The position numbers were made by a program, and so were the translations under genes. The notes below the pieces were generated by a model, which was not told the DNA's origin, searched no databases, and was given only the letters and a program-made list of their open reading frames with translations. A stretch of 64,000 bases of DNA, taken from assembly GCF_036195045.1 (NCBI RefSeq), contig NZ_CP108100.1, forward strand, positions 992,001 through 1,056,000, written 5' to 3'. Below, piece by piece: positions 46,785 to 64,000 of this stretch (the stretch's first letter is position 1; every line of letters starts with the position of its first letter). The DNA is from Streptomyces sp. NBC_00236 (GTDB lineage Bacteria; Actinomycetota; Actinomycetes; Streptomycetales; Streptomycetaceae).

Positions 46785-48335
46785 TCAGCCCCGCAGGCAC
46801 CACGCGACGAACTCGGTGACGCTGGCGTCCACACCGGCCTCCTCCTTGGTCACGGCGGCCGTGTGGAAGAAGCGCACCTCCCCGAAGTGGAGATCCATCG
46901 CCCGTACGAGGCTGTGCAGGCCGAGTACGTCGCGGAGCCAGGTCCGGGTGGCGGCGCTGTCCTCGAGGCGGGCCGGCAGCAGGCCGTGTTCGGTGAGCAG
47001 GTCCATCTTGCTGACGGCGACCGCCAGGCGGGAACGTCCCAGCGGGGCGCCCATCGCGGCCACCGCCTGAACCGAGCGGGCGAAGACCTCCTCGGGGTCG
47101 ACCGTGGAGCCGAGGGTACGGTCCATCAGGGGGCCGGGAGCGGGTTCCACACGGGTCCAGAACGCCTTCACCGCCATCGGGTCCAGGACGAAGACGAAGG
47201 TGCGCGCCGCCCGCGCGTACCGCAGCGCGTCCGTGTCGTCGCGGTCGACGAACCGCTCACCCGCCGTGTCGAAGAGATGGACCAGACGCTGGGAAAGACC
47301 CCTGCCGAGGACGAAGGAGTGGGCTCGGGGCAGGGTCCTCTGCGTGGCACGGGTGTGCCCCCGCATCTGCAGAACCTCGCGGAGCACCTGGTAGTTGGCG
47401 TCCGACTCCTCGTCGGCGAGGGTGATCGCCGGACCGCCGTTCGCCGCCGCGTGTTCCAGGGACAGGAGCATCGCTGCCATCAGCTGGGTCTTGCCCGCCG
47501 CCTGCCCGCCTATCAGCGGGATCACCACCTCGGGCATATGGCCCGCGTCGGTGTTCATCGGCTTCCCGCAACGCGGGTAGACACAGTGTGCCTGGAGCCG
47601 CCCGTTCCGGCCCATCAGCATCAGCAGCGTCGGCATGTGCCCGCCGCACTCGCAGCGGCGCCGGAAGACGCCGTACGTCCCCGGGCGGATGTCCGTGTGC
47701 CGGCGACGGCACGTGGCGCTGGGACAGTCGTACGCCGGGTAGGGCACGCGCTCGAAGCAGTGGGGGCAGAGCATTCCGGTGCGCAGTCGCTTCATCCACA
47801 GCACCGCCCGGTCGACGGTCCGCAGGGCTCCCGCGACGAACCGGGCGCCGGCCGTCAACAGGGCCAGGACCAGTGCGTGCAGGCCCAGCAGCAGGCAGAT
47901 CAGTGCCAGGGCCGGCACCGTGCCCACGCACAGCCCCAGGTACAGCGCCACACCGTACGGCATGGTCAGGGCGCGGTGACGCGTCGGAGCGACGAACTGC
48001 CGTGAGGTCACGGCACGGAAGGAATCGCCGACCGTGGTGGCGTACGAGCGCCGCGCCAGCGTGAGGAGCTGGCGCAGGTCACGGAAGGCAGGTCCGAAGA
48101 AGTAGTTGCGGTACGCCTTCACCTGCTCGTCCTGCGGCCGGTAGGGCGGCAGTGTCTGGAACTCGGGGGTGCGTCGGTACACCACGCCGAACAGCGTGCG
48201 TCCGTAGCCGGCGAGTACCTGCATCACGAGGGCGAGACCCCGCAGGGCGGCGATGACCGGTACGAAGGGCAGGAACGCGCCGAGTGCGACGAGGTAGAGG
48301 GCGGGGACGAGAACGAACGCGACGATCTCAGCCAT
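46785..48335 (-). CDS. Membrane-anchored zinc-ribbon GTPase of a double-GTPase conflict system
   Basis: 516 residues. Hydrophobic N-terminal helices (5-40) and a second pair (about 127-165) precede a double zinc ribbon (CPHC, CPSATC, then CECGGHMP and CVYPRC). A TRAFAC-class P-loop domain follows: GGQAAGKT (276-283), the DxxG motif FDTAGERF, and the base-recognition-like SKMDLL. It is the last gene of the large minus-strand operon and begins 6 bp after the natural end of the GAP1-like gene. Comparative work describes such paired GTPases as the core of predicted NTP-dependent conflict systems. The transposon upstream is likely polar on it. Confidence 0.68.
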   Translation of the reverse strand: MAEIVAFVLVPALYLVALGAFLPFVPVIAALRGLALVMQVLAGYGRTLFGVVYRRTPEFQTLPPYRPQDEQVKAYRNYFFGPAFRDLRQLLTLARRSYATTVGDSFRAVTSRQFVAPTRHRALTMPYGVALYLGLCVGTVPALALICLLLGLHALVLALLTAGARFVAGALRTVDRAVLWMKRLRTGMLCPHCFERVPYPAYDCPSATCRRRHTDIRPGTYGVFRRRCECGGHMPTLLMLMGRNGRLQAHCVYPRCGKPMNTDAGHMPEVVIPLIGGQAAGKTQLMAAMLLSLEHAAANGGPAITLADEESDANYQVLREVLQMRGHTRATQRTLPRAHSFVLGRGLSQRLVHLFDTAGERFVDRDDTDALRYARAARTFVFVLDPMAVKAFWTRVEPAPGPLMDRTLGSTVDPEEVFARSVQAVAAMGAPLGRSRLAVAVSKMDLLTEHGLLPARLEDSAATRTWLRDVLGLHSLVRAMDLHFGEVRFFHTAAVTKEEAGVDASVTEFVAWCLRG

Positions 48336-48341
48336 GGCGGG

Positions 48342-48521
48342 TCACCACCCCTTCCCTTCCCGGGGGTCGCCGGGTTCCCGCGGGGCGGGCGGGTCGGAGG
48401 CGTCCTGAGATGTTCGCGTCGCGCGGCGGTCCAGGAACGGTAGCCAGGTCGGCCGGCTTCGCGGTGCGGGCCGACGTGCCTCGGCCCCCTCGGCGTAGCG
48501 GTTGGCGAGTTCGGCCCCGTA
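48342..48521 (-). pseudogene. 3' remnant of the GAP1-like gene, severed by the transposon
   Basis: 59 codons and a TGA in the frame of the GAP1-like gene, starting YGAELANRYAEG and ending PREGKGW. They lie on the far side of the insertion from the gene body. If the element and one TA are removed, codon CCC of the body is followed by TAC GGG here, restoring 831 residues with no frameshift. The fragment alone has no start codon. Its end is 6 bp before the GTPase ATG, as expected of a coupled operon. Confidence 0.8.
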
Positions 48522-48545
48522 GGGCGCGTATCGAGTCGCGATCAA
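48522..48545 (+). repeat. Outer left terminal inverted repeat
   Basis: GGGCGCGTATCGAGTCG followed by CGATCAA. It is the inverse of 50313-50336 with one mismatch (C for T), and TA precedes it. Confidence 0.85.
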
Positions 48546-48700
48546 TCTGCGGATTCGCCCTGTTGGCGGAGAGAGTGCCTGAGCGGCCCCAACACCATCG
48601 GGCCACACCAAAGCCACCGAATCGTGCGGGTCCGGCGAGCTCGCTGGAGAGGAGCGCCACCCCTGTCTCTACCGCTGAATGGCACGTAGCGTGTTGCGGC

Positions 48701-49240
48701 ATGACGCTGCCGGAGCTGCCTCAAAACAGGGCCCTGCTTGACCTGCTGCGGCAGCAGGGGGTTCCGCAAGAGCGTGGTGCCGACGCCTACGAGGGGTGGG
48801 AGCTGCATACTCACCCCGATCTGGTCGAGAGACTTGAGGACCTTGCTCCCCAGTGGCCTGTCCTGGCGACGTTCGGGGTGCCGGTGCTCGCAGGCAAGGG
48901 CATCGCCGCAGTCGTTGCGTGGGGCATGCGCATGTTGCTGGTGCGCCTTCCCGAAGCACCGCCCGAGCCCCTGGAACTCGCGGAACCATGCCCGCTTCTG
49001 ACGGACCCGGGTCAGGGTTGGTACTCGGTCTGCCCCTGGCAGAGGGAGCTGCACTCGGCGGAGTCCAAGGCCCGGCTGTCGCTGTTGATCCGGCATGCGC
49101 TCTCGTATGCGGCGACCCTGTCGGAGGATGACAGCATCGACTGGCAGGGGCGCCCGGTGCAGGCTCCCGGCACGCGCAAGGGTAAGGCCACGGGCAGACG
49201 ACCCAGCAGGGACCAGGGCAGACGCGGGCGACGGCGCTAG
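48701..49240 (+). CDS. Passenger protein of the transposon, unknown function
   Basis: 179 residues starting MTLPELPQNRALLDLLRQQG. The ordered core (residues about 10-145: GWELHTHPDLVERLEDLAPQWPVLATFGVPVLAGKGIAAVVAWG) ends in a basic Arg-rich tail. No family is recognised. TAGCGT lies eight bases before the ATG, suggesting a leaderless transcript. The TAG stop uses the TA preceding the internal IS end plus its first G, so its own C-terminus may have been cut by that IS. It runs opposite to the transposase and to the host operon, which marks it as cargo or a captured gene. Confidence 0.55.
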   Translation: MTLPELPQNRALLDLLRQQGVPQERGADAYEGWELHTHPDLVERLEDLAPQWPVLATFGVPVLAGKGIAAVVAWGMRMLLVRLPEAPPEPLELAEPCPLLTDPGQGWYSVCPWQRELHSAESKARLSLLIRHALSYAATLSEDDSIDWQGRPVQAPGTRKGKATGRRPSRDQGRRGRRR

Positions 49241-49263
49241 GGTGCCGAACGAGTCGTGATCAA
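49240..49263 (+). repeat. Internal left end of the basic IS
   Basis: GGGTGCCGAACGAGTCG followed by TGATCAA matches the inverse of the right end at 20 of 24 positions and is preceded by TA. With the right end it delimits a 1,097-bp IS. Confidence 0.75.
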
Positions 49264-50263
49264 AGGGCGGCGCTGGTGAGGTCTTTGATCCAGATCACCG
49301 AGGCACGGAGGTGGAGTCCGGCGAGGTAGCTCTCGGGCGTCTTGTCGTAGCGGGTGGCGATGCCGCGCCAGGCTTTCAGCTTGTTGATCAGCCGCTCGAC
49401 GGTGTTCCGTTCCTTGTACAGGTCGCCGTCGTGGCTGATGGGCCGGCCACCGCCGGACCCCTTCCTCTTGCGGTTGGCGGCCTGGTCGACCTTCTCCGGG
49501 ATGACGGCCTTGATGCCGCGTCTGCGCAGGTGGGCTCGGTTGCCGCGGGACGAATACGCCTTGTCGCCCGCGACAGCGTCGGGCCGAGTGCGGGGGCGGC
49601 CAACGGGCCCGCAGATCCGGACCTTCCTCAGGACAGGGATGAACTGCGGGCTGTCGGCTGCCTGTCCGGCAGTCAGGACGAACGCCAGCGGGCGGCACTT
49701 GCGGTCGGCGGCGAGGTGGATCTTGCTGGTCTGCCCGCCCCGTGAGCGCCCGAGGTGGGCGACTTTCAGCCGGAGCTTTCGGCGCCGCCGGACGCGTCGT
49801 CGCTCCTCCCGTTCAGGATCGGCTTCAACGTCGTGTCCGCTTTGTTCTTCGAGGCCGCCCCTTTTGAGCTGGCCTTCTCCTCCTCGGCAGCTGCCTTCTC
49901 CAGGGAGGTGAGCACGTCCTCGCCAAGGTGCATCCCGGCGGCATCATGGTGGGCACGCGCGGTGGTGGAGTCGATGCTGACCAGCGACAGGTCCACTTCG
50001 CCCCGCTTCGCAGCCTCCACGATCAGGCCCTCCAGCAGGGACTCGAACACACCGGCGTCACGCCACTGCCGGAAGCGGTTGGAGACGGTCGACCAGGCGC
50101 CGAACTCCTGTGGCATCTCCCGCCACTGCCCGCCGGTCTTGAACCGCCAGATCACACCCTCGAATTGCTGCCGCAGCCGCTCCGGATACGGGCCGTACTC
50201 GCCGATCGGCAGGTGGGGCCCGATGACTTCCCACTCTTCGTCGGTCAGTTGCACTCGCGTCAC
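49260..50263 (-). CDS. IS5-family transposase, two frames joined by -1 shift
   Basis: The first frame (50263 to 49766, 165 residues) has the N-terminal DUF4096-type domain (VQLTDEEWEVIGPHLP) and the first DDE Asp in SLVSIDSTTARAHHDAAG. The second (about 49789 to 49260) carries VAHLGRSRGGQTSKIHLAADRK, the second Asp in AVAGDKAYSSR, and the Glu in YKERNTVERLINKLKAW. The second frame is -1 relative to the first and overlaps it by about 20 bases. A purine-rich GGGAGGAG just upstream could stimulate programmed slippage, as in other IS5 elements. Both frames look intact, so the enzyme may be active. Confidence 0.8.
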
Positions 50264-50312
50264 GCGGATGATCTACCGGTTCAGAACCTCTAAGCGGGGT
50301 CGAACCCAAGAA

Positions 50313-50336
50313 TTGATCACGACTCGATACGCGCCC
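50313..50336 (-). repeat. Right terminal inverted repeat
   Basis: On the minus strand it reads GGGCGCGTATCGAGTCG followed by TGATCAA. Its first G completes the TAG that stops the truncated GAP1-like gene at 50336-50338. Confidence 0.88.
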
Positions 50337-52654
50337 TAGGGCCTGACCGCCCGCTGCAGGCGTTCCAGGTCCGCGACGGGCCAGTGCCCCACGGGACGGG
50401 CGCGGATCGCGGCGACGCTCTCCTCCTGGGACTGGGAGAGCCCTGATCCCCTGCGCAGGGTGACGACGGCGGCGACATGGCTGAGCGTGACCTCGTCAAT
50501 CCGCTCGGCACGCGTCACCCTCCGGTGCAGGATCGACAGATATCGCTCCCGTTCGCGGTCGTTCAACTCCGGCAGTCTGTCGCGGAGTCGGCCGATGTCG
50601 GCGGGCAGGCGCAGCATGGCGGGGACCAGACGGAAGCGCTTGAGTGCCCGCGGGGCCGCCCACGGACCGGTCTCATGGATCGCGAAGGCGCCGGCGAGTT
50701 CCGCCGCCTCGCGGGCGTCCTGGAGTACGTCGTCCAGCTCCAGCGTGGTCCGTACGTACTCCCCGGCGCCCTGCGGCAGCCAGGCGAAGCGGCCCGGGTG
50801 GATGAACCGCCGGCAGAGGTGGAGACAGGACTCGAGCGCGTCCTCGTCCTCCACGGGTTGCCGCAGGGCGCGGTCGAACCACTCACCGACGACTTCGCCC
50901 ATCGGACCCGAGGGGGGCAGTTCCTCGGCGATACGGATCGCTTCGGTGTGGGTCCAGCGGCGTGAGGGCTGCCGCCACAGGCCGCGCAGCAGTTCCTCGT
51001 CGGGGGACGCGCAACCGCGGATCCGCAGGATCCTGAACATGATCGGGACCGTTTCCGAAGGCGTACGCTCGGCCCGCGCCCGCAGGCGGTACTCCTGGAG
51101 CAGCGGGCGGCCTTCCAGGTCGTCCTCCATGAGCAGGTCGGCGGGGAACTGCGAGAACAGCTGCTCCTGGCCCGCGCGCCGCTCCAGCACCTCCTCCACC
51201 GCCGTGGCCAGAGATGCCCTCATCACCGGGAGGGAACGGAGGAGTTCGGCCACCTCCGAGCGAAGCCGCGGGGCGTCGGCGGGGGAGCCGAGCAGCGCTC
51301 GGGCCAGGGTGAGCGTCTCGCCCGCCATGACCTCCGGCGACACCGGGAGGCCTGCGCCGAAGGCCCAGAGCAGCAGCCGCGTCCGTTCGCGCGGGGTTCG
51401 CGCCTCGGCCCCCAGCATCCGCTCCCAGAGGACGGTGGCCCGCTCGCGTGACACCGGGTCCACGATCGGCACAGGCGCGACGGCACCCTTGGCTCCGGTC
51501 GCATACGCCCGCATGCGCGACGCGTGGAGCTTCCCTTCGATCTCCTGGTGCACCGCGATGTCGCCACCGGCCTGCGCGGCGGCGCTCAGCGCGGCCAGTC
51601 GGCCGTCGTCCAGGTCCCGGTGCTCGCGATGAATGTCCGCGGCGACGGCCGCCCTCCGTGGCCCCAGATGCTCGGCCCCGGCCAGCCAGTCGATCACCGC
51701 GTGGGCGTCGGCCGGGGCGAGCGTGATGCTTCCCGAGGCCGCCGCCGCGGCAACCGGGGCGTGCCAGTCGTCCGCCGACTCCTCCCCGCCCCGGGCGTAG
51801 TCCGCCGTCCAGGACCAGACGGGCCGTACGGAGCCGACACCGATCCTGGTGAGAAGACGGACCAGGGCGCCGATCGGGACCTCGGGGAAGACGCCCCGCG
51901 CGAAGTCGAACACGGTGTACGCCGCTTCGTCGTCCGGTCCGAAGGCGAGCTGCGCCTCGGGCACCGTCCCGATCAGGTGCAGGCGGCTGCGGGCCGGACG
52001 GAAGACGTAGGTGGCGAAGGAGAGGCCTCGGGCGAGCGGAGGCGGCAGCAGATAGGAGACCGCGGCGAACCAGTGCGCGATCTGGTCGGTCGACCGGTCG
52101 ACCACCACCACCGAACCGTGCTCGGTGAGCGCACCGAACACGGCGGCCAGCAGCCCCGGCAGCCGGTCCGCGTGGGGATGTGCGCGCAGGAACGCGCTCA
52201 CGGCCCGGGCGTCGATCGGCCCCGGCGGAGGCGTCCCGAGCATCGGGATCTCGGTGCTGGGCGATACCTCGCCGGCCCACGCGGACGAGTTCCACAATTC
52301 GATCGGGAGCACCCCGTCCCCTGCGACCGTGAAGTCCTCACTGTGCAGAGCGTGGGCGAAGTAGTTGCCGAAGCGACGGGCGGAGTCACGGCCCACGTAC
52401 CGCACGCACACGGCCGTGGCGCGGCGCCCCGCCCGGTCGTAGGGCTTGTAGCAGAGGTTGACCGGGCAGCGCTCCAGTGACTCCGGCGTGTCCGACTCCA
52501 CCAGGGAGCGGGGCGGCTCGTACCCGGCCAGCGCCTCCACGGCCTGGCGGGTCTCCTTGGTGACGCCCGCGCTGACGGCGTTGAACTGGAATCCGGAGTA
52601 CCCGGTGAGCCCGTGCTCGCAGGACGTGTAGTAGAGCTGCTCGAATCGCGTCAT
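50336..52654 (-). CDS. GAP1-like protein (GTPase-associated protein 1), truncated by transposon
   Basis: 772 residues beginning MTRFEQLYYTSCEHGLTGYSGFQ, the start pattern of the GAP1-N2 domain. A central helical region and a C-terminal repeat-like region (about 430-770) follow, without catalytic motifs. GAP1 proteins accompany paired GTPases in predicted conflict systems and are taken to be their effector or adaptor. The ATG overlaps the stop of the zinc-ribbon GTPase gene (ATGA). The TAG stop is made by the TA target copy plus the first base of the transposon, cutting off 59 residues found at 48342-48521. Confidence 0.65.
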   Translation of the reverse strand: MTRFEQLYYTSCEHGLTGYSGFQFNAVSAGVTKETRQAVEALAGYEPPRSLVESDTPESLERCPVNLCYKPYDRAGRRATAVCVRYVGRDSARRFGNYFAHALHSEDFTVAGDGVLPIELWNSSAWAGEVSPSTEIPMLGTPPPGPIDARAVSAFLRAHPHADRLPGLLAAVFGALTEHGSVVVVDRSTDQIAHWFAAVSYLLPPPLARGLSFATYVFRPARSRLHLIGTVPEAQLAFGPDDEAAYTVFDFARGVFPEVPIGALVRLLTRIGVGSVRPVWSWTADYARGGEESADDWHAPVAAAAASGSITLAPADAHAVIDWLAGAEHLGPRRAAVAADIHREHRDLDDGRLAALSAAAQAGGDIAVHQEIEGKLHASRMRAYATGAKGAVAPVPIVDPVSRERATVLWERMLGAEARTPRERTRLLLWAFGAGLPVSPEVMAGETLTLARALLGSPADAPRLRSEVAELLRSLPVMRASLATAVEEVLERRAGQEQLFSQFPADLLMEDDLEGRPLLQEYRLRARAERTPSETVPIMFRILRIRGCASPDEELLRGLWRQPSRRWTHTEAIRIAEELPPSGPMGEVVGEWFDRALRQPVEDEDALESCLHLCRRFIHPGRFAWLPQGAGEYVRTTLELDDVLQDAREAAELAGAFAIHETGPWAAPRALKRFRLVPAMLRLPADIGRLRDRLPELNDRERERYLSILHRRVTRAERIDEVTLSHVAAVVTLRRGSGLSQSQEESVAAIRARPVGHWPVADLERLQRAVRP

Positions 52655-53841
52655 CCCCGGCCCGCCTTCGGCACCGAACCGAACTCGCTCAGCAGCCACA
52701 GCAGCGGGTCGGCCACCCGGTACGGCTGGATGCCGGTGGGGGCGACGCGGGCGTCGGGGGTGGGGTTGCGGCCGAGAGCGGAGACACCGAAGTACCGGTA
52801 GCGGCTGAAGTGGTTGTCGAGGAGGTGGTCGATGGCCACGCCGTCCCAGTCCTTCAGGAGCCGGCGCACCTCCTCGTGGACGCTGAGGCTGTCGCTCACG
52901 TCGAAGTGGCCGCGTGGCGGCGCGTAGTCGCGCAGCGGACTGCCGGGGTCGAGCAGGTGCCAGAAGGCGTCCATCTTGGAGAAGACGACGGAGACCGGGG
53001 TGTCGATCTTCTGTGCCGACCGTCCGGAGCGGGGGGCCAGCAGAAGGTTGGTGACCCGGGAGAGCACGTTGATCGGGGCGTCGAGGCCCTCGGTACCCGG
53101 CAGCGGGGTACCGGGCAACGCGTTGTCGCGGGCGCCCGGCATCTGGAGCGGGTCGAGCAGCAGCACGATGCCGTCGGCGCCGGCCAGGTAGCGCGTGTTC
53201 AGCTCTACGTTCTCCCGGGAGCTGAAGTCCTCACCGGCCGTGTCGAAGAACGAGAGGACGGTGTGCTGCGGGCGCTCGCCGAGCAGGGTGCGCCGGCGCA
53301 GGCCGAAGCGGAAGACGAGTGGATCCACCCGGTTGAGCGTGGTGGAGGCGGTCTGGGTGCCGGGGAACATCTGGTTGTCGCCGTAGAGACGGTCTTCGTA
53401 GTCACTGCCGAAGCGCCGCATCGTCTCGTCGTCCGAGCCCATGAGAGCGGCTCCGAACGCCTCGCCAACCCGATTGCGCATCTCATGGAGCAGCACCGTC
53501 ATGTAGACGGTCTTGCCGGACGCCTTGGGGCCGACCAAGGCGATCAGCCGGTTGTCCACCATGCCGAACTGGACGGGCAGATCGGAGTGGCACACCGGGC
53601 AGATCCGGTAGGTGGTCTCGCCGTCGCAGTCCGGGCAGACCGACGTGGGCCTGCGCCCGTCGGCGGCGAAGTCCGGGCCGAGGTCGTGGCTGCGGCGCGG
53701 GCCCTTGCGCTGGTCGAGGGCCTGGTCGCGGCGGCGTTCGCACTGTTTGCCCGTCCGGCTCAGACGGCAGTTGCAACGGAAGCGAATCTCTCGCGGGGCG
53801 AAATGCTCGTAGCAGTAGGGGCAGGTGAGGCGTTTGGCCAT
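52651..53841 (-). CDS. Zinc-ribbon TRAFAC GTPase (DO-GTPase2-like)
   Basis: 396 residues. Two zinc ribbons lie at the N-terminus (CPYC ... CNC, and CPDC ... CPVC near residue 81). They are followed by the P-loop GPKASGKT (104-111), the DxxG motif FFDTAGED, and SKMDAF as the base-recognition-like motif. It lacks membrane helices, unlike the second GTPase of the operon, so one member may be soluble and the other membrane-held. The stop and start overlap with GAP1 (ATGA) and the Hsp70-like gene (TGATG) makes it part of the coupled series. Frames extending it upstream are shadows. Confidence 0.7.
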   Translation of the reverse strand: MAKRLTCPYCYEHFAPREIRFRCNCRLSRTGKQCERRRDQALDQRKGPRRSHDLGPDFAADGRRPTSVCPDCDGETTYRICPVCHSDLPVQFGMVDNRLIALVGPKASGKTVYMTVLLHEMRNRVGEAFGAALMGSDDETMRRFGSDYEDRLYGDNQMFPGTQTASTTLNRVDPLVFRFGLRRRTLLGERPQHTVLSFFDTAGEDFSSRENVELNTRYLAGADGIVLLLDPLQMPGARDNALPGTPLPGTEGLDAPINVLSRVTNLLLAPRSGRSAQKIDTPVSVVFSKMDAFWHLLDPGSPLRDYAPPRGHFDVSDSLSVHEEVRRLLKDWDGVAIDHLLDNHFSRYRYFGVSALGRNPTPDARVAPTGIQPYRVADPLLWLLSEFGSVPKAGRG

Positions 53842-55808: not shown

Positions 55809-57937
55809 CCGTTCCCTCCGCTCATGAGCGGCGCCACGTCGTCGGGGGAGACCCGCACGGCGCCGTCGGCCCCGACGCCGACCCGGATCCGGGTGCCGGG
55901 CTCCGGTCGGTGCGCCAGCAGGTGCCCGACGACGGCCGACCGCACCAGCTCCAGCTCATTGCGGATCTGCCGCCCTCCGTACGCCTGATGCTCGGGGTCC
56001 GCCATCCGCTCCGTGATCCACGGATGCAGGCTGTCCTGGTCAGGAACCAGCTCCACGCGGTGACGTTCGCGGACGGACTCGGCGAGCTGTCGCAGCAGCC
56101 GGTCGGCGATCCGGACTACGTGCTCATGGCGCAGCATGTCGAAGACGACCACTCCGGGCTTGAGCCGGCCGTAGATCTCCGGTCTGCCGATCTGCCGGAA
56201 CTTCTCCTCAACCGCCCGGGTGAAGTGTGCCTCCAGCTGGGGGTACGAGAGCTCCTCACGCTCCTCCAGCAGGCTCCGTACCTGCTCCGCCCCCGTGTTG
56301 GAGGTGAAGATGATCAGGCACTGGGAGAAGTAGGCGGTCTGACCACGCCCGTCGGTGAGTCTGCCGTCCTCCAGGATCTGCAGGAACTTGTCCAGAACCT
56401 TGGGATGGGCCTTCTCGATCTCGTCGAAGAGCAGCACGCTGAACGGCCGTTCCTGGACCCGGCGTGTCAGTTCACCGCCCTGCTCGTGTCCGATGTAGCC
56501 GGGCGGCGCCCCGGCCAGCCGCTCGGCGGCGTGCTCCTGCTGGTACTCGCTCATGTCGAAGCGGGCGTACGCGCTCTGGTCGCCGAACATCAACTCGGCT
56601 ACGGCCTTGGCCAGTTCGGTCTTGCCGACGCCGGTCGGCCCCACGAAGAAGAAGGAGCCCCGAGGTCGAGCGACGCCCGAGCTGCCGAAATCGACTCCTA
56701 CGAATGCGGACTGGAGCGCCGACGCGACGGCGCGCACGGCCGTGGGCTGGCCGACCACCCGGGTACCGAGGACTTCGGCGGCGCCGGCGACGGTCTCCCG
56801 GTCGAGCTGGGTCCACGGGTCGACGCTCACGTTGAGCCGGTGCAGCTCCAGCAGCTTGTCCGGCTTCCGCACGGGCGCGTTGCGCAGCCACGAGGTCCTG
56901 GCAAGGGACTCGATGTCCCAGGCCGCCATGCCGTCGGTGGCTCCCACGAGGGCTTCCAGGTCGGCACGGGAGGAGTCCTGCGCCCCCTTGAAATCCTGCA
57001 GCAGCCAGGTGAGCCACAGCCGCCGCTCGCTCGGGTCGGGCGGGCCGATGTGCAGCGCGGCGATCCTCGGGTCCTCCAGGTGGAACCAGCCGGGCAGCCG
57101 CCCGACGTCACCGACCGCGCACAGCACCGCGTTGCGCGCGTGCGGAGCCGGGCCCGTGGCGGAGCGCGGAGTCACGGCGCCCGTCATCGCGGCCCGCAGC
57201 CGCAGATAGCCCAGGTGCGATTCGGGCTGCCCGGGCGGGAGCTGGTGGTCGACGTCCTCGAAGACGAAGGCGGTGGCCGCGTCGGGCGAGGCCGCCAGGC
57301 GTTGCACGGTGGCGACGACGTCCTCGAAGGCACGCGGCGGCCCCGACCGGCGAGGCGCCAACAGGCGCTCCCGGCCGCGGTCCCGCTCACCACCGCGTCG
57401 GCCACGAGCCGCCGTGTCCGAGCCGTCGTCGGGTGCCGCGTCGTCGCGTGCCCCGCCCCTCCGCGGTCCGTCCTCGCTGGGCCCTTCTCCGTCCCGGTGG
57501 CCCCGTGGCGGCCGGATCCCGGAACCTTCCGGCGCCGCTTCTCCGGCCCTGCCCCGACTCCCCGCCCCCTCCGCGGGACGCCCCTCGCGCAGCTGGTCGA
57601 AGCGCTCCGCGTGACCCGGCAGCGGAAAGGTGAGCCCGTCCACCGGGTCCCACCAGCCGACCACCTCCGCGCCACGGTCCTCAAGCAGTCCGGCGACCAC
57701 GTGGCGGAAGGAAGCCGGGCGGTCCGCGAACCACCAGCGGTCTCTGATCTGCCCGTTCAGGACCACTTGGCGCCCGCGCCGCAACTCCCAGCCCAGGGAC
57801 ACCGCCCACAAGGGCATCATGCCGTCCGCGGTGACCGGCTCCCCGTCCCGGGTGGATCCGTTTCCACGGGACGCGTTCGGGGAGCCTGCCGCGCCGCCGA
57901 CGCCGTTCTCGCGCTTGACCCAGCCGACCGTGCTCAC
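55805..57937 (-). CDS. ClpB-like AAA+ ATPase
   Basis: 710 residues. The N-terminal 240 residues contain a degenerate AAA-like region (VLNGQIRDRWWF, FVFEDVDHQLPPG) without a Walker A motif, interrupted by a low-complexity Gly/Arg insert (about 120-200). The C-terminal domain is a ClpB/ClpA D2-type ATPase: VVGQPTAVRAVASALQSAF, Walker A GPTGVGKT (433-440), Walker B VLLFDEIEK, pore-like GYIGHEQGG and sensor TSNTGAEQ. It should remodel proteins with ATP. The GTG at 57937 overlaps the previous stop (GTGA) and has GGAGGTGG upstream. Confidence 0.78.
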   Translation of the reverse strand: MSTVGWVKRENGVGGAAGSPNASRGNGSTRDGEPVTADGMMPLWAVSLGWELRRGRQVVLNGQIRDRWWFADRPASFRHVVAGLLEDRGAEVVGWWDPVDGLTFPLPGHAERFDQLREGRPAEGAGSRGRAGEAAPEGSGIRPPRGHRDGEGPSEDGPRRGGARDDAAPDDGSDTAARGRRGGERDRGRERLLAPRRSGPPRAFEDVVATVQRLAASPDAATAFVFEDVDHQLPPGQPESHLGYLRLRAAMTGAVTPRSATGPAPHARNAVLCAVGDVGRLPGWFHLEDPRIAALHIGPPDPSERRLWLTWLLQDFKGAQDSSRADLEALVGATDGMAAWDIESLARTSWLRNAPVRKPDKLLELHRLNVSVDPWTQLDRETVAGAAEVLGTRVVGQPTAVRAVASALQSAFVGVDFGSSGVARPRGSFFFVGPTGVGKTELAKAVAELMFGDQSAYARFDMSEYQQEHAAERLAGAPPGYIGHEQGGELTRRVQERPFSVLLFDEIEKAHPKVLDKFLQILEDGRLTDGRGQTAYFSQCLIIFTSNTGAEQVRSLLEEREELSYPQLEAHFTRAVEEKFRQIGRPEIYGRLKPGVVVFDMLRHEHVVRIADRLLRQLAESVRERHRVELVPDQDSLHPWITERMADPEHQAYGGRQIRNELELVRSAVVGHLLAHRPEPGTRIRVGVGADGAVRVSPDDVAPLMSGGNG

Positions 57938-59373
57938 CGGGTCCACCTCCACTCCCCCGCGCCGGGCACCTGCCTGGCCTGTCGCCCGGGCGGCTTGCCC
58001 TGCCAGGTGAGTTCACCGGGGACGAAGCCGTCCCGGACGACGATCGCCTCGTGCACCCGGTCCAGCAGGTCCTCGGTGCGGTCGCACACAGCGCCGTCCG
58101 GCTCCGGCCGGAGTGTCACATCGGGCTCGCCGTCGACCTGGTACACGAGGAGGGGGGTGCCGCCGCCGTCGGTCGTGATCGTGGTCCGGTACGTGGCCCC
58201 GCTCGGACGTTCGAAGCTGAGCAGCAGGCGCCCGTCCTGGTCGTCTCCGCCGGTGAAGGCGAAGCCCTCGCCGAGCATGGCGTCCTGCAGCGCCTGCGCG
58301 AGGTCCATCCGACGGATGTAGGCCAACTGCAGTTCGTCCAGACGGGCTTCGGCTCCGACGAGCATGTCCTCCAGCGCCGCGACCGCTGCCAGCGCCTCGG
58401 GCGGCGCGCCCGCCGCGAGTCGGTCCGTGACGGCGGCCAGCGCCGCCTCGATCCGATCGGCGAGTTCGCGGTCGGCGAGCTCCCGGGCCTCGTCCGCCGC
58501 CTCTTCCACGGCGCCCCGTACGACGCGCAGCCGGTCCTCCGCTTCGGTGAGCGTCGCCGCCAGGCGTTCCCGCTCCGCCTCCGACTCCGCCTGGCGGGCT
58601 GCCTCCTGGACGGCCGCGCGCTCCTGCGCCTCCCGCTCGGCCTCGAGCGCCCGCTCCGCGCGGCGGCGCTCCTCGGCGACCCGTTCCCCCGCCGTCGCGG
58701 CATGCCGGGCGAGCGCGTGCTCCACGGTGCCGAGCAACGCCCGGAACCGGGTCTCCGTGCCGGGCCTGGCCGCGGCGCGCAGCTCGCCGAGCAGGTCGAC
58801 GCAGTTCCGGTGCCCCTGCGGGTCCTGCGCCCTGGCGTCCGCCCCGATCCCGGCCAGCCGCGACTCGAGACCCGCCATGACGGTCTCCTGGTCGGCGTCC
58901 CGGCCGGGCGGCTCCCCGTCCCGGCCGAGTACGACGACCCGGCCGCGCAACTCCTCGATCGCCCCGCCCACGTCCTCCGCGCGGCCGACGCCGGCCTGGA
59001 GCTCTTCCAGCCGCCGCCGCAGGGCCCGCACCTCGGACTCCTCCGCACGAATCCGGTCAAGGAGTTCGCGTACCTCGGCCAGTCGACGCGCGTCGGCCGC
59101 GGCCTGCTCCTGGCGCACCTCGTGCGCGTGTGCCTGGTCGCGCGCGGCCCGGCGGTTCGCCAACCCGGCCTCCCGGCGCTCGGCCTCGGCCCTGGCCCGC
59201 TCCCGACGAGCCACCGTCTCCGCAGCCCGCCGGGCGGCTTGTTCGGCCCGCTCCTTGTCACGCTGTGCCCGTTGGCGCCGGCGCTGCGCCTCCCGGGCCC
59301 GGCGGCGTTGCGCCTCTAGCCGCGCGTACGCCGGCGCTACCGTGACGGTGCTGTACTTCGGTGATCCGCTCAT
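57934..59373 (-). CDS. Coiled-coil protein
   Basis: 479 residues. A long highly charged coiled coil (about 15-330, ARLEAQRRRAREAQRRRQRA and later EAEREAQERAAVQEAARQAE) ends in a globular C-terminal domain (about 350-479) with FAFTGGDDQDGRLLLSFERP and HEAIVVRDGFVPGELTWQG. It is found between the AAA+ and radical-SAM genes with 4-bp overlaps on both sides. Such coiled-coil partners probably scaffold the ATPase; the C-terminal domain is not recognised. Confidence 0.65.
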   Translation of the reverse strand: MSGSPKYSTVTVAPAYARLEAQRRRAREAQRRRQRAQRDKERAEQAARRAAETVARRERARAEAERREAGLANRRAARDQAHAHEVRQEQAAADARRLAEVRELLDRIRAEESEVRALRRRLEELQAGVGRAEDVGGAIEELRGRVVVLGRDGEPPGRDADQETVMAGLESRLAGIGADARAQDPQGHRNCVDLLGELRAAARPGTETRFRALLGTVEHALARHAATAGERVAEERRRAERALEAEREAQERAAVQEAARQAESEAERERLAATLTEAEDRLRVVRGAVEEAADEARELADRELADRIEAALAAVTDRLAAGAPPEALAAVAALEDMLVGAEARLDELQLAYIRRMDLAQALQDAMLGEGFAFTGGDDQDGRLLLSFERPSGATYRTTITTDGGGTPLLVYQVDGEPDVTLRPEPDGAVCDRTEDLLDRVHEAIVVRDGFVPGELTWQGKPPGRQARQVPGAGEWRWTR

Positions 59374-60017
59374 GCTTCCCTCCCAGCCTCGGCGCGCAGG
59401 ACGAACCCCCGAGCCGCGAGTCGTTCCTCGAGCCCTTCCCGGAAACCGGGAGTCGGTGGCACCCCGGCCCAGGACAGCGAGCCGTCGGCCTCCACGGTCA
59501 GTTCGACACCCGCGCTGGTGTCGGGCTCGGTGCCCACCTGTGCGTAGCGCTCGGTCAGGGCGACGAGGCGCTGGTTGGACGAGCCACGCCACCGCAGACC
59601 GTGCTGCGCGGAGGCCACGTACGGCCCGTCGACGAGCAGGTCGAGGCGCCGCAGCAGCCCGAGCCGTTCCGGGCCGCCGCGAAGCAGGGCCTCGTACCGG
59701 AATCCTGAGTACGCCATCGCCGTGAACCCCGGCCGCCGCGACCGTACGTGGTCGAGCAGTTCGGCCAGCGCCTCCGCCTGGCCGAAGGGCTCGCCACCGG
59801 AGAGGGTCACGCCCTCGATTTCGGACAACTCGCAGAGCCAGTCGGCCAGTTCGGTCACATCGTGCGTGGTGCCACCGTCGAAGGGCAGCGTCTCCGCCGC
59901 CACGCAGCCCCGGCAGCGCAGCGGGCAGCCCTGCACCCAGATAACCGCTCGGACCCCGGGCCCGAGGACCGTGCAGCGGTCGAGCGTGCGCGCCACCGAG
60001 AGCGTCACCTCTGCCAT
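59370..60017 (-). CDS. Single-domain radical-SAM protein (4Fe-4S, NrdG-like)
   Basis: 215 residues. The cluster motif CPLRCRGC (Cys31, Cys35, Cys38) is the CxxxCxxC of radical-SAM enzymes, followed by GVTLSGGEPFGQ, the SAM-binding GGE. The length suits an activase-like single-domain form such as NrdG/PflA. No glycyl-radical enzyme is in the window, so the target is probably a protein of this operon or an unknown small molecule. The ATG at 60017 overlaps the kinase-like gene by 13 bp. Confidence 0.75.
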   Translation of the reverse strand: MAEVTLSVARTLDRCTVLGPGVRAVIWVQGCPLRCRGCVAAETLPFDGGTTHDVTELADWLCELSEIEGVTLSGGEPFGQAEALAELLDHVRSRRPGFTAMAYSGFRYEALLRGGPERLGLLRRLDLLVDGPYVASAQHGLRWRGSSNQRLVALTERYAQVGTEPDTSAGVELTVEADGSLSWAGVPPTPGFREGLEERLAARGFVLRAEAGREA

Positions 60018-61138
60018 CCGACCCTCCCCTTCACATCGGTTGTGGCCTGCGGGCCCTTCGTGACCCCTGGGTCCGGCGTCGAGTCGTCCCGTAACGGCCG
60101 CGCGGCCGGTGCCGGATAGCCGTCCGCGCCGCTTTCGGCCAGGTCGCACCAGGGGCACCAGGGCCGCTCGGCGGTGTGCACGTGCAGCGGCCCGCGCCGG
60201 CAGGTCCTCAGACGGGCCGGGTCCACCTCCTCCGCCAGCGCCTGCGCCCAGGCCGACGCAGTGGGCCGTACTCCACCGAACGCCGCCCGGAAGAGGGCGG
60301 TGAGCCGGCGCGGGAGCAGGTCGACGGGTGGTGCGGAGCGGGGCAGGACCACCGAAGCCCGGTCGAGGAGGCGGCAGCGGCGGTGCAGGACGTTGTCGTC
60401 GTACGAGAGGTAGTCGCCGCCGGAGGCGGGATGCCCGGCGAACGGGTGGAGCCCGCACATCAGCAACTGGTGGACGAGGACGGCGAGGACGAACTCGTCG
60501 GACGCCCGGTCCGGCGCGGTGCCGGCCGGGGCCCCGATCCGTTCGGGCGCCGTGTGGCCCGGGCTGCCCATCCGCCCGGGGAACACCTCACCGCCGTCGG
60601 TGAACTGCCAGGAGTCCGCGTCCGCGATGCCGACCCTGCCGTACGCGTCGACCCAGAGGTTGTCCGGTTTCAGATCGCCCACCACATAGCCCTCGGCATG
60701 CAGGTCGGCAAGGAGACGGGCGAGCGACAGGGCGGCCGCGAGCCCGGTGGCCCAGGTCGCATGGGAGAGGAGCCTCTGGCGGACCTGCGGGGTCAGCAGG
60801 TGCGCGAACGGCTGGTGGGCGTGACGCATGTCGGTCATCACATAGCCGTCCACGCCCTCGGCGCCCGGGCCGCCGGCCCGGACCCCCGCCAGCGGCCAGG
60901 CGACCCGCGCGGGCGTCGCGGACAGCAGCCGGACGGCTCGCGGCTCGCGGCGCTGCCGTACCAGCCGCTCGATACGGCGCCGGTAGGCCGCCGGGTCGCG
61001 CGGGGCGGGGACCAGCTTGGCCACCAGAGGGCGCGCGTCGTCCACGGCGTAGACGATTCCCTCCGAACCCGCGCCGATCTGCTCGGTGAGGCGCCATGTG
61101 TGCCCACTGCCGGACACCACCGTGAGGGCCATCGTCAA
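60005..61138 (-). CDS. Serine/threonine kinase-like protein
   Basis: 377 residues with an N-terminal kinase fold: glycine loop GAGSEGIVYA (about 22), catalytic Lys41 in VAKLV, HAEGYVVGDLKPDN (Asp155, Asn160), and ADADS in place of DFG. The APE equivalent is TAPERIGAP. The C-terminal tail has CPWCDLA, a possible zinc site, and no PASTA domain or membrane helix. The ADADS form is common in the kinase branch paired with PP2C and vWA genes in operons of this type. The stop overlaps the next gene; ATGA links it with the phosphatase gene upstream. Confidence 0.72.
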   Translation of the reverse strand: MTMALTVVSGSGHTWRLTEQIGAGSEGIVYAVDDARPLVAKLVPAPRDPAAYRRRIERLVRQRREPRAVRLLSATPARVAWPLAGVRAGGPGAEGVDGYVMTDMRHAHQPFAHLLTPQVRQRLLSHATWATGLAAALSLARLLADLHAEGYVVGDLKPDNLWVDAYGRVGIADADSWQFTDGGEVFPGRMGSPGHTAPERIGAPAGTAPDRASDEFVLAVLVHQLLMCGLHPFAGHPASGGDYLSYDDNVLHRRCRLLDRASVVLPRSAPPVDLLPRRLTALFRAAFGGVRPTASAWAQALAEEVDPARLRTCRRGPLHVHTAERPWCPWCDLAESGADGYPAPAARPLRDDSTPDPGVTKGPQATTDVKGRVGWQR

Positions 61139-61938
61139 CTGCCCTCCGTCAGGGCACAGACCACGGTCAGGTCGTCGCCGGTCCGTGCGGCCCCGGGGCC
61201 GGAGAGCAGGGCCCGCAGGTCTGCGGCGTCCCCGCCGTTGGCACGGAGCGTCGCGGCGAGACCGCAGAAGAATTGCTCGGCGGGCAACGGGCCCGCATGG
61301 GGAGGAAGTTCATGTACGGAGGGGTGATCGAGGGTCAGGGCGGCGCAGCCGTCAGTGGCGAGCACGACCCCGCTGAGCCGCGGCTCCCACAGCGCGAACG
61401 ACCGTAATCGCAGACCGGCGCCGGGCGAGGAGAGGAAGACGGTCTCCGTCGCGCCGGGAGGGGGCGGTGGCAGGACGAGATGACACCGCTCGTCCGGTCC
61501 GGCGGGCTCGTGGGTGAGCACCGTGCCGAAGCAGTCGCCGACCGCGAGGAACGCCACCCAGGGCGGCCGTACCACGGCCGCGGCCAGTGTGGCGGCCAGC
61601 GCGCCCGCGTCGACCGGCTCCGACGGGCCGGCCACCGCCGACAGCACCCCCTCCACCGCCCTCCGGTACCCCTCGACCACCCGGGCGCCCGCCGTGGCGA
61701 TCCACCCCGTCCACGCCTCCGGGGCGTCCGCCGCATCCGGTACGTCCTGGGCCAGGATCCGGCACGCGGCGTCCACCGCGATGTGCGCGCCGAGCGCGCT
61801 GCGCTGTCGTCCGCCGGCGCCGTCCGCGACGGCGAGCACGGCCGCCGCGCCCAGGTCGACCACCTTGAAGGCGTCCTGGCAACCCTGGGCATGGGCCAGG
61901 TGCGCGGTCCCCTGGACGGCCGCCCCCGCCACGATCAT
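61135..61938 (-). CDS. PP2C-like protein phosphatase
   Basis: 267 residues with the PP2C pattern HAQGCQDAFK, AVLAVADGAGGRQRSALG, AVGDCFGTVLT, GVVLATDGCAALT and a C-terminal TGDDLTVVCAL. The metal-binding Asp residues of these motifs are present. It directly precedes the kinase gene with ATGA overlap, so the two probably set the phosphorylation state of the system's parts. Confidence 0.78.
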   Translation of the reverse strand: MIVAGAAVQGTAHLAHAQGCQDAFKVVDLGAAAVLAVADGAGGRQRSALGAHIAVDAACRILAQDVPDAADAPEAWTGWIATAGARVVEGYRRAVEGVLSAVAGPSEPVDAGALAATLAAAVVRPPWVAFLAVGDCFGTVLTHEPAGPDERCHLVLPPPPPGATETVFLSSPGAGLRLRSFALWEPRLSGVVLATDGCAALTLDHPSVHELPPHAGPLPAEQFFCGLAATLRANGGDAADLRALLSGPGAARTGDDLTVVCALTEGS

Positions 61939-62705
61939 TGGACCTTCTCCTCAAGGAGTCGCATGCGCCGCTGCCGCTCCACGCGGTCGGCCACCCTCCC
62001 GTGGATCTCGTCGGCGGCCTGACTCGCCCCGACCACGTCCGAGCTCTCGAACAGCAGGTCGAGGATCCGCCCGAAGTCCAGGCCCTCCAGCATCAGCGCT
62101 CCCTTGGGCGTCAGGACCCGCAGCAGCTCCAGATCCGCGCCACTCACGCCGATCGCCTGGAGCACACACTCGCCCCGCTCCTCGCCGCGTCGCACCATCT
62201 CCGCTGTACCGGCCAGAGCGGCGGGGTCCATCGCCTCCCCGTTCGCGTCGCTCGGCGCGCCGTCCGTCAGCACCCAGAGGAACGGCCTGCGCACCTGCAC
62301 CTGTTGTTCCTGCAAGGCCCGATGGCGCGAGCGCGCGAAGTCGAGCGCCGTCTCGACGGCGTCCGTCATCCGGGTGAGTCCGGATGCCTCCAGCCGGGGC
62401 GGGCGCATCCGGTCCACCGGTACGAAGAGCCGGTCCGGGGCGGCGTCCTCCACAGGCACCAGCCGGTCCCGGTCCGGGTCGAAGACCCTGACCCGCGAGT
62501 CGAAGGTGATCAGGCACACCTCCACCCGCGCGCGCAGCCTCGGTTCCGCCCGCACTCCATCGAACCAGCGGACCAGCGCCTCACCGAGCTCGTCGATCCG
62601 GGGGTTCCCGACCGGGCGCCCCATGGAGGCCGAGGTGTCGAGCAGCAGGACGACGGGCTGCCGCTCGTCGTACCCCTGCGCAAGCCCGAAGCCGTACTCA
62701 CTCAT
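61935..62705 (-). CDS. vWA-domain protein
   Basis: 256 residues. A complete metal-ion-dependent adhesion site is visible: LLDTSASMG (Asp23, Ser25, Ser27), a Thr in GLTRMTDAV and Asp in VLTDGAPSD. It is a cytoplasmic protein-binding module, typical of TerY or MoxR-associated operons. The ATG overlaps the small gene upstream by 8 bp, and its stop couples to the phosphatase gene. Confidence 0.82.
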   Translation of the reverse strand: MSEYGFGLAQGYDERQPVVLLLDTSASMGRPVGNPRIDELGEALVRWFDGVRAEPRLRARVEVCLITFDSRVRVFDPDRDRLVPVEDAAPDRLFVPVDRMRPPRLEASGLTRMTDAVETALDFARSRHRALQEQQVQVRRPFLWVLTDGAPSDANGEAMDPAALAGTAEMVRRGEERGECVLQAIGVSGADLELLRVLTPKGALMLEGLDFGRILDLLFESSDVVGASQAADEIHGRVADRVERQRRMRLLEEKVQ

Positions 62706-62928
62706 CTCCGACCGCCCCGCCCTCGTCCGTCCGGCCCGCCGCGTGGGCGAGGCGCCGTTGCCGCTCGGGGTCGTAGCGCACGACGACCTCCGTACCCGGC
62801 GCCATCCCGGGAGAGTCCGGGAGCATGCGCAGCAGCACCCCTTCGACCAGAACGTACGCGTCGGGAGCCGGCCAGGTGATGACCCGGCCCGGCGCCCCGT
62901 GACCCCACTGTTCCATCGCGCCACTCAT
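62698..62928 (-). CDS. Small hypothetical protein of the conflict operon
   Basis: 76 residues starting MSGAMEQWGHGAPG; a second ATG at 62916 is an alternative start. The part RVITWPAPDAYVLVEGVLLRMLPDSPGMAPGTEVVVRYD looks like a small beta fold. No family is recognised. It is the first gene of the overlapping run; 172 bp separate it from the macro-domain gene, so an internal promoter is possible there. Confidence 0.55.
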   Translation of the reverse strand: MSGAMEQWGHGAPGRVITWPAPDAYVLVEGVLLRMLPDSPGMAPGTEVVVRYDPERQRRLAHAAGRTDEGGAVGDE

Positions 62929-63100
62929 GGGCCCACGCTAAGTGCTGCGACATCAACTTCGGCTGCACGGGCAGAGATTACCCACACGAAGATCCCCCCG
63001 ATTCCCTGCCGCCGTTTTCCGCTTCCCGGCATCCCATGTGCCGCCCCGTGCACTGTCGCGCGCCCTGGTGCGCCCTGGTGCGCCCTTCCATTGCACCGGA

Positions 63101-64000
63101 TCAGCCGGTCGCCCTCCGGGCGTGCTCCGGGCGAATTCCGGCCGGGATACGTTCCACCAGCCCCGCCGCCTCGGGCGTGCGCACCACGAAGTGGACGTCC
63201 CAGCTCGCCCCGCGCGCCAACTCCGCGTCCACAGCCGCCCATACGGCGCCCAGGCTGACTTCGTACGAGAGTCCGCCACGGCCCGAGCCGAGCAGCGGGA
63301 AGCACACCGAACGCAGCGCCGGCACGTGGCGCTCGTGTTCCTCGGCGAGCACTGCCAGCGCCCGGGACACCGCCCGGGTGACGTCGGCCGGCAGCACGTC
63401 GTAGTCGTTGGTCCCGGCCCGGGGTACGGCGATGGCCGCGTGGTAGACCCGCCGGATGCCCTGAGCGGCAAGTGCTCCTGCCCCGGTGGCCGCCACCGTG
63501 CCCGCTCGCACCGCCCGCCCCGAAGTGCCGTGCCGCGCGGCCCACTCGCGCAGCTCCGCCGGGAGCGGGTCCGCCAGCACCTCTCCGGTGACGCCGTGCA
63601 CGGCCGCGGCACGACGCAGTGACGCGGCGACGGAGGACTTGTACGCCTCGGGCAGCGCGAAGTACACGTTGGAGGGGCAGACGACCACGTCCACGTCACG
63701 GAGCAGGTCCACCGGGTGCATGTGCAGGGTGAGCCGGACGGGCCGGCCCGCGGCCCGGACGTCCACGACCCGATGGGTGCCCACCCCGCCGGTGGTGCTC
63801 CCGTCCCCGGCGGCAACGCCGAGATCCGCTCCCGCCGCGTCCACGGTCAGCCGCACAATGTGCTCGGCGACCTGACCGAGGACCATCACCTCCTGGTCCT
63901 TGCGGAACCGCTCGACGCTCACGCCGTAGACCGAGGCCGCCCTGGCCCGGCGGGAGGACGCCGGCCAGTCCCGGGTCCCCTGCGCCAGTCCCAGGGTGTA
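63101..64000 (-). CDS. Macro-domain protein, 5' end cut by window edge
   Basis: The visible 299 residues read through to the right edge without a stop. A first ATG-like GTG at 63922 is internal to a coherent sequence (RAASVYGVSVERFRKDQEVMVLGQVAEHIVRL), so the gene continues beyond 64000. The C-terminal half is a macro domain: VVVCPSNVYFALPEAYKSS, then AGTVAATGAGALAAQGIRRVYHA and FPLLGSGRGGL, which forms the ADP-ribose-binding loop. It probably binds or removes ADP-ribose on a protein of the system. The operon may begin further right. Confidence 0.72.
   Translation of the reverse strand, partial: YTLGLAQGTRDWPASSRRARAASVYGVSVERFRKDQEVMVLGQVAEHIVRLTVDAAGADLGVAAGDGSTTGGVGTHRVVDVRAAGRPVRLTLHMHPVDLLRDVDVVVCPSNVYFALPEAYKSSVAASLRRAAAVHGVTGEVLADPLPAELREWAARHGTSGRAVRAGTVAATGAGALAAQGIRRVYHAAIAVPRAGTNDYDVLPADVTRAVSRALAVLAEEHERHVPALRSVCFPLLGSGRGGLSYEVSLGAVWAAVDAELARGASWDVHFVVRTPEAAGLVERIPAGIRPEHARRATG

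Follow-up and report, generated by a model that had tools for sequence, protein, structure and literature searches.

GTPase-centric conflict systems built around the GAP1-N2 domain were predicted by Kaur et al. in 2020 (PMC7159879), the sole class-defining paper that we found. The accessible part of its text sets out three non-overlapping themes, the third of which comprises GAP1-N2/M/C, two DO-GTPases (one of them membrane-bound), a kinase, a PP2C phosphatase and a standalone vWA protein in actinobacteria. All these features are shared by the operon analysed here, which lies on the minus strand of the Streptomyces sp. NBC_00236 genome (8.33 Mb, a single contig) and runs from past the right edge of a 64,000-nucleotide stretch, hereafter the window (G000:C1:992001-1056000), down to position 46785. 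In this operon, however, the Hsp70 theme and the kinase theme are combined, and a radical S-adenosylmethionine (SAM) enzyme, a coiled-coil protein and a ClpB-like AAA+ protein are added. It truly belongs to the GAP1-N2 class and is conserved, its combination of parts is new, and it includes a radical-SAM–chaperone module of wider occurrence.

In the same text, “radical SAM” occurs a single time, for FtsH ternary systems, and “CHAT” does not occur; its figures may draw such neighbours. A published description of the radical-SAM/coiled-coil/ClpB module was not found in a search made mostly without subscription papers and preprints. GAP1-N2 GTPases and radical-SAM–coil–AAA+ chaperones, which are separate in the sampled loci, are joined here with identifiable effectors, so that a purely predicted class of systems becomes testable by simple mutants.

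Composition and conservation of the operon

Genes were called by codon usage, with some starts chosen separately, and several Pfam scans were run on the longest open reading frame (ORF). In the order of transcription, the upstream part (region L006) encodes a 208-amino-acid (aa) protein, a CHAT protein of 1122 aa, a 226-aa protein, a RES protein of 228 aa and a macro-domain protein of 373 aa; gene calling in L006 places RES at 6285-6971 and another gene at 11065-11691. The macro gene enters the window at 63101..64000, its start being called about 222 bp outside, at about 64222. It is followed by a 76-aa protein (62698..62928), the vWA protein (61935..62705; 256 aa), the PP2C phosphatase (61135..61938; PF13672, PP2C_2, 5.9e-28), the Ser/Thr kinase (60005..61132; PF00069, Pkinase, 5.5e-8) and an NrdG-like radical-SAM enzyme of 215 aa (59370..60017; PF13353, Fer4_12, 4.1e-33, scanned on a longer ORF). 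Then come a coiled-coil protein (57934..59373), which has no Pfam match and whose conserved C-terminal domain was found by alignment, a ClpB-D2-type AAA+ protein with a long N-terminal region (55805..57946; AAA_2 1.2e-49, PDB ClpB1 chain 2.9e-62) and an Hsp70-like protein (53841..55808; PF00012, HSP70, 1.6e-11). The series closes with a zinc-ribbon DO-GTPase2 (52651..53841; PF19993 2.8e-7, 30.9 bits, cut-off 27), GAP1 with a shortened C-terminus (50336..52654; PF20013, PF20014, PF20052) and a membrane zinc-ribbon DO-GTPase2 (46785..48335; PF19993 6.3e-16, 59.2 bits).

The assignment to the class is carried by GAP1, in which GAP1-N2 (3.1e-36), GAP1-M (6.2e-25) and GAP1-C (1.5e-58) all score far over the Pfam cut-offs, together with the zinc-ribbon DO-GTPase and the combination of a zinc-ribbon kinase, PP2C and standalone vWA. 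The DO-GTPase zinc ribbons are deduced from cysteine pairs (CxxC at 7, 69 and 81), without a Pfam zinc-ribbon match, and that of the kinase is read by eye from one C-terminal CxxC (at 326) plus one nearby cysteine. A simple hydropathy scan gives the membrane DO-GTPase three hydrophobic segments, none of them C-terminal. The AAA+ protein is ClpB-D2-like (AAA_2 168.9 bits versus AAA_5 43.6) and not of the MoxR type, and hence the MoxR–vWA ternary arrangement is not the one found here. The HSP70 match is confined to residues 85-255, after which follow a proline-rich linker and a C-terminal region without a family; this region looks beta-rich, as judged by eye only, and fibronectin type III repeats gave no Pfam match among the scanned proteins.

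An initial annotation, based on the window alone, had named twelve products, and all of them are in place on this strand. Its domain assignments are borne out by Pfam for PP2C, the kinase, the radical-SAM enzyme, AAA+, HSP70, DO-GTPase2 and GAP1, including the GAP1 and double-GTPase profiles on which it had staked the products of 50336-52654 and 46785-48335. Its vWA and macro domains fall just under the cut-offs (VWA_2 24.8 bits, 2 bits below 27, with the DxSxS motif kept here and in 20/20 relatives having the gene; Macro 21.4-21.5 bits, cut-off 22). The overlaps of 1-13 bp that it described at nearly every junction occur at 8/11 junctions, the others being gaps of 2 bp, 172 bp (macro/76-aa) and 2000 bp (GAP1/membrane GTPase); the coiled-coil/AAA+ value uses a GTG start at 57946, by analogy with the related locus L007, whereas the gene caller’s start gives 19 bp. 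“Twelve-part” was too few, as at least four further genes precede macro outside the window, CHAT and RES among them, and an IS4/5-type insertion before the last gene had gone unmentioned.

Further Streptomyces, and two more genera of Streptomycetaceae, have this gene order too, which indicates that the arrangement is more than chance. In 22 radical-SAM loci of this family checked by gene calls (L007-L018, L166-L172, L133, L134 and L153, where L015 and L171 look like one genome), the kinase, radical-SAM and AAA+ genes were each present in 21, vWA and the coiled coil in 20, PP2C in 19, Hsp70 in 17, the DO-GTPase, GAP1, the membrane GTPase and CHAT in 16, RES and its partner in 14, and macro in 11. 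The sole radical-SAM miss (L172) is a gene-call miss; L011, L016 and L018 are cut by contig ends, and L133, L134 and L153 are without GAP1. The locus of S. misionensis (L013) has the radical-SAM enzyme, coiled coil, AAA+, Hsp70, GTPase, GAP1 and membrane GTPase. The 76-aa protein, without a Pfam family and with matches in Streptomyces relatives, may be a small partner or substrate.

Patchy presence, and a flanking gene found apart from the operon in carriers, mark the locus as accessory and its chromosomal setting as variable. The radical-SAM gene occurs at E<=1e-20 in 27/295 Streptomyces genomes, 8 of which (this one included) have it at >=67% identity, and in 17/200 genomes of a family-level sample that overlaps the former set. 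The flanking acyl-CoA dehydrogenase gene has a 71-85% identical relative in 8/8 carriers tested, and in each of them this relative lies either on a contig other than that of the full-type radical-SAM gene or at a distance of >=0.33 Mb from it; the eight belong to the 11 other genomes that, across the two samples, have the enzyme at >=62% identity, and in G356 the test took no account of that gene’s surroundings. The set is therefore not universal in Streptomyces; its presence in every genome of the genus, with a housekeeping phenotype, was what the initial annotation had named as fatal to its reading.

The radical-SAM, coiled-coil and AAA+ module

The radical-SAM enzyme is closest to NrdG, although its TIGR02491 score of 105.9 bits lies below the cut-off of 126.1. 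CxxxCxxC is present in 120/121 rows of its alignment, and both CxxxCxxC and GGEP occur in 21/21 relatives whose gene was called. Its own genome gave 0 matches to NrdD, in a search whose control was positive in 6/14. Because of the low NrdG score and the absence of an NrdD match from the genome, we rejected its identity as the activase of anaerobic ribonucleotide reductase. The genome’s sole Gly_radical match (L180, G000:C1:3371407-3371703) has an apparently broken frame and adjoins a PflA-like activase gene, and for both reasons it is not an obvious partner. We propose the coiled-coil protein or the AAA+ as the target of the enzyme, since they are its most constant neighbours. The C-terminal domain of the coiled-coil protein is conserved across phyla, with a near-invariant cysteine in 26/27 aligned rows (Arg in L017), the most divergent rows being less surely aligned. 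That a relative of NrdG occurs in a genome lacking NrdD, and usually near a coiled coil and an AAA+ unfoldase, points towards protein-radical chemistry of an unknown sort.

“GTPase-centred”, the label that the operon had been given, is insufficient because the radical-SAM–coil–AAA+ part ranges more widely and often has no GAP1 match. From GTDB genomes, 80 loci were kept out of 144 relatives; 12 are from Streptomyces and contain all or some of the operon, and the others come from cyanobacteria, Armatimonadota, Riflebacteria, Planctomycetota, Bacteroidota, Pseudomonadota, UBP7, archaea and more. A ClpB-like AAA+ lies in the locus in 15 of the 26 non-Streptomyces loci L019-L044 and in 3 of the 42 more distant loci L045-L086, and GAP1 or DO-GTPase matches are absent from L019-L086. 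Kinase, vWA and FHA are additionally matched in L019, L021, L034, L040 and L041, and Hsp70 and vWA in L025. In the radical-SAM tree (120 rows, midpoint root, some long branches), 51/54 grouped AAA-linked rows fall on one 72-row side and 17/17 GAP1-bearing rows within one starred 20-row branch.

Two cyanobacterial loci (L025, L029) have the Hsp70-like, radical-SAM, coiled-coil and ClpB-like AAA+ genes close together without a GTPase match, and L025 further has the vWA gene and a coiled-coil protein weakly matching GrpE. In two archaeal metagenome-assembled genomes (L042, L057), the radical-SAM gene is adjoined by a ClpB-like AAA+, the gene calls being adjacent in L042.

Conversely, GAP1-N2 was found in 32/101 Streptomyces genomes, as 36 rows at 35 places. 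Twenty regions covering 21 of these places were taken, while three full-type places (G000, G088, G091) were left out and 11 were not included. None of the 20 regions scores for the radical-SAM enzyme, ClpB-AAA, CHAT, RES, macro, vWA or PP2C, although divergent relatives may be missed because the profiles derive from the full-type operon. A GTPase is matched in 12/20, a kinase weakly in several, and Hsp70 in one. The same regions serve as a chance control for AAA+ matches in 20-kb Streptomyces stretches. The present genome has a second, different GAP1-N2 gene (L201, G000:C1:6769040), with a kinase match nearby and no match to the radical-SAM module.

Within Streptomycetaceae, 25 of the 40 radical-SAM loci L133-L172 have the ClpB-like AAA+, and the other 15 are ten loci of a second operon type and five on the NrdG-like side of the tree (L143, L144, L146, L147, L149). 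Three loci (L133, L134, L153) carry vWA, PP2C, kinase, radical SAM, coil and AAA+ with no GAP1 or GTPase match; L133 and L153 have Hsp70-like matches (in L133 Pfam HSP70 at 20.3 bits, cut-off 20.6), and L133 has CHAT. The second type is a clade of ten loci (L136, L137, L139-L141, L151, L152, L156-L158), nine of which show a layout of 632-aa, DO-GTPase-like, 840-aa and 467-aa proteins, vWA, radical SAM and coil; nine have a two-domain AAA+ of a different family. The effector position is taken by CHAT in L140 and by a TPR-trypsin protein in L137. Since 9/10 of these loci have their own DO-GTPase-like gene (PF19993 22.5 bits, below the cut-off of 27, in the one scanned), we rejected the idea that a GTPase was joined to the radical-SAM module only once. 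The 840-aa protein shows a weak alignment with GAP1-M, at a corresponding relative position (for this single pair, probability 9% and E 0.0036), and at full length with three rows the probability is 6.8% and the GAP1 alignment lies at another place. Kinase, coil, AAA+, radical SAM and RES occur together in a third set (L145, L150, L159, L162-L165), some members of which add FHA, CHAT or macro, and their order varies. Hence the presumed effectors vary around a constant radical-SAM enzyme, coil and AAA+, as would suit a sensor/effector system.

Candidate effectors and the role of the operon

CHAT and RES, both outside the window, are the likeliest effectors. The CHAT protein (PF12770, 6.5e-34) has the His and Cys motifs SHG and SACQT. 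RES (PF08808, 2e-16, 60.8 bits, cut-off 23.2) keeps constant Arg, Glu and Ser columns in 18/18 aligned rows, as read by eye, these being the residues that give the domain its name, and is coupled to its 226-aa partner gene by a 4-bp overlap. As far as the accessible texts go, RES proteins are reported to lower NAD in Pseudomonas (PMC8065639, PMC11535050), TPR-CHAT is a caspase-like protease in Craspase (PMC9729208), and Kaur et al. name caspase-superfamily peptidases as effectors of GAP1-N1 systems (PMC7159879). Like TPR-CHAT, the present protein is long, with a C-terminal CHAT domain and His and Cys motifs; unlike in Craspase, the operon genes scanned include no CRISPR-type family, and CHAT has no PDB sequence match at E<=0.1. 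As in RES toxin–antitoxin pairs, RES stands beside a conserved small gene, but this pair is embedded in a large operon. A second CHAT gene (L006:11981-15301, plus strand; PF12770 6.2e-44) lies just outside the window, divergent and facing the operon; it has no match in the upstream stretches of relatives L202-L208, and related CHATs score in L017, L018, L166, L167 and L176.

We suppose, with a probability of roughly one half, that the operon is an accessory, moving conflict (self-sacrifice) system of about 16 genes, its role in defence being inferred. In such a system, the Hsp70-like and vWA proteins would sense a bound or misfolded ligand; GAP1 would reset the nucleotide state of the DO-GTPase pair at the membrane and so set a threshold, which the kinase and PP2C may tune. 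The radical-SAM enzyme would act on the coiled-coil or AAA+ partner travelling with it, and the AAA+ unfoldase would release or activate the outputs, i.e., CHAT proteolysis and RES-dependent NAD+ breakdown or ADP-ribosylation, while the macro protein would limit damage by ADP-ribose. The conflict class named in the initial annotation does agree with that of Kaur et al. (PMC7159879) as far as its text is accessible, and the conflict role is still a prediction.

Several observations weigh against this reading. Experiments on GAP1/DO-GTPase systems were not found in the literature searched. The accessible part of PMC11237479 mentions a DO-GTPase once, in another context, and the text of PMC8195603 contains neither “GAP1” nor “DO-GTPase”. 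PADLOC, run on 10 proteins with CHAT, RES, the RES partner, the 76-aa protein and the membrane GTPase left out, recognises just two of them, the kinase by PD-T4-6 (31.7 bits) and the AAA+ core by PDC-M37B (108.8 bits) and DolB (71 bits). The 226-aa RES partner matched no antitoxin family or fold (Pfam, with a single hit at E 0.19; PDB profiles; a fold search with a model of confidence, pLDDT, 70), in which it may differ from the Xre/MbcA-type partners in RES toxin–antitoxin pairs. L168 and L172 lack CHAT and RES upstream, and CHAT matches lie downstream of the operon (L176, and L179 weakly at 71 bits); the macro gene does not adjoin the operon in L009, L166-L168 and L172, with downstream matches in L177 and L178; and L013 lacks kinase, PP2C, vWA, CHAT and RES in 10 kb upstream.

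The same parts could instead belong to a membrane or envelope stress and protein-quality system, in which the GTPases, Hsp70 and ClpB-like AAA+ repair or remodel membrane complexes and CHAT and RES are tightly held emergency parts. The hydrophobic segments of the membrane GTPase and the disaggregase-type AAA+ and Hsp70 agree with this, as does the description of DO-GTPases as predicted for membrane-related stresses (PMC11237479, accessible part), but an accessory distribution and protease- and RES-type genes would be odd for housekeeping repair, and we regard this explanation as unlikely. A switch of development or of the cytoskeleton in filamentous bacteria, with the GTPase pair placing complexes in growing hyphae or at sporulation, draws on the link of GAP1-N2 to the multicellular habit (601/904 organisms, P 6e-152) in Table 1 of Kaur et al. 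and on the assembly of cytoskeleton-like complexes that their accessible text suggests (PMC7159879). It is markedly less probable, since 268/295 Streptomyces have no match at E<=1e-20, toxin-type domains are carried, and the radical-SAM–AAA+ part is also present in the archaeal genomes L042 and L057. Lineages such as these are not known for multicellular growth. Least probable of all is a pathway modifying a protein or a peptide of the ribosomally synthesised and post-translationally modified (RiPP-like) kind, with the other genes as regulators. The invariant CxxxCxxC and GGEP of the called relatives and the nearby 76-aa protein would suit it, but the enzyme is of the NrdG-like and not of the peptide-maturase kind, Pfam finds neither a precursor nor an exporter in the operon genes scanned, and the 76-aa protein has no match in L019-L086 or in further radical-SAM loci without the full operon.

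GAP1 structure and the insertion in this genome

The predicted N-terminal half of GAP1 appears to resemble a DENN module in the structural model. Foldseek gave no match at E<=0.001, with helical solenoids at the top ranks and DENND1A at rank 12, and the DENN modules DENND1A/B, DENND10 and FLCN-FNIP have no sequence match to GAP1. GAP1 differs from them in being bacterial and in a much longer helical C-terminus, and its regulator activity is putative. According to the accessible text of PMC3521125, DENN and d-DENN are known solely from the DENN module, and guanine nucleotide exchange factors and GTPase-activating proteins are mostly unique to eukaryotes. Tentatively, and with more doubt than conviction, we suggest that GAP1 is a bacterial DENN-type module (GAP1-N2 as longin, GAP1-M as DENN, GAP1-C as an enlarged d-DENN-like solenoid) that switches the membrane GTPase pair and, coupled to the radical-SAM/coiled-coil/ClpB module, releases the CHAT protease and the NAD-depleting RES enzyme. 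If so, bacterial immunity would hold a counterpart of GTPase regulators described as mostly eukaryotic, conflict systems of bacteria would use DENN-style control of GTPases, and an AAA+ chaperone would be primed by a radical-SAM enzyme for which no glycyl-radical partner is known.

The operon copy in this genome is probably impaired, because GAP1 lacks its final helix and tail and a 1.8-kb insertion of the IS4/5 type (48523..50335) separates the membrane GTPase from the rest. GAP1 has 772 aa here versus 831 aa in a 97%-identical relative (P0001), and the relatives’ proteins continue beyond its stop point in the alignment. The P0001 residues after 772 are recognisable beyond the insertion in the ORF 48342-48617; by-eye comparison with relatives places this detached 3' coding part at 48342..48522 on the minus strand. 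In the P0001 model, the segment lost here comprises only the last helix (775-788) and a low-confidence tail, so that a partial function of the shortened GAP1 is possible. The membrane GTPase gene itself keeps an open reading frame; in S. eurocidicus (L007), a relative whose set is free of the insertion, it begins 7 bp after GAP1, and it also follows GAP1 in the other full-type loci reaching that far.

The insertion is bounded by inverted ends of 16 bp (48523-48538 and 50320-50335), which a third end at 49250-49261 resembles, and includes an IS4/5 transposase fragment (PF13340). It also holds a called 179-aa ORF on the plus strand (48701..49240) without a Pfam match, and the three ends look as if a passenger gene had been captured by an insertion sequence.

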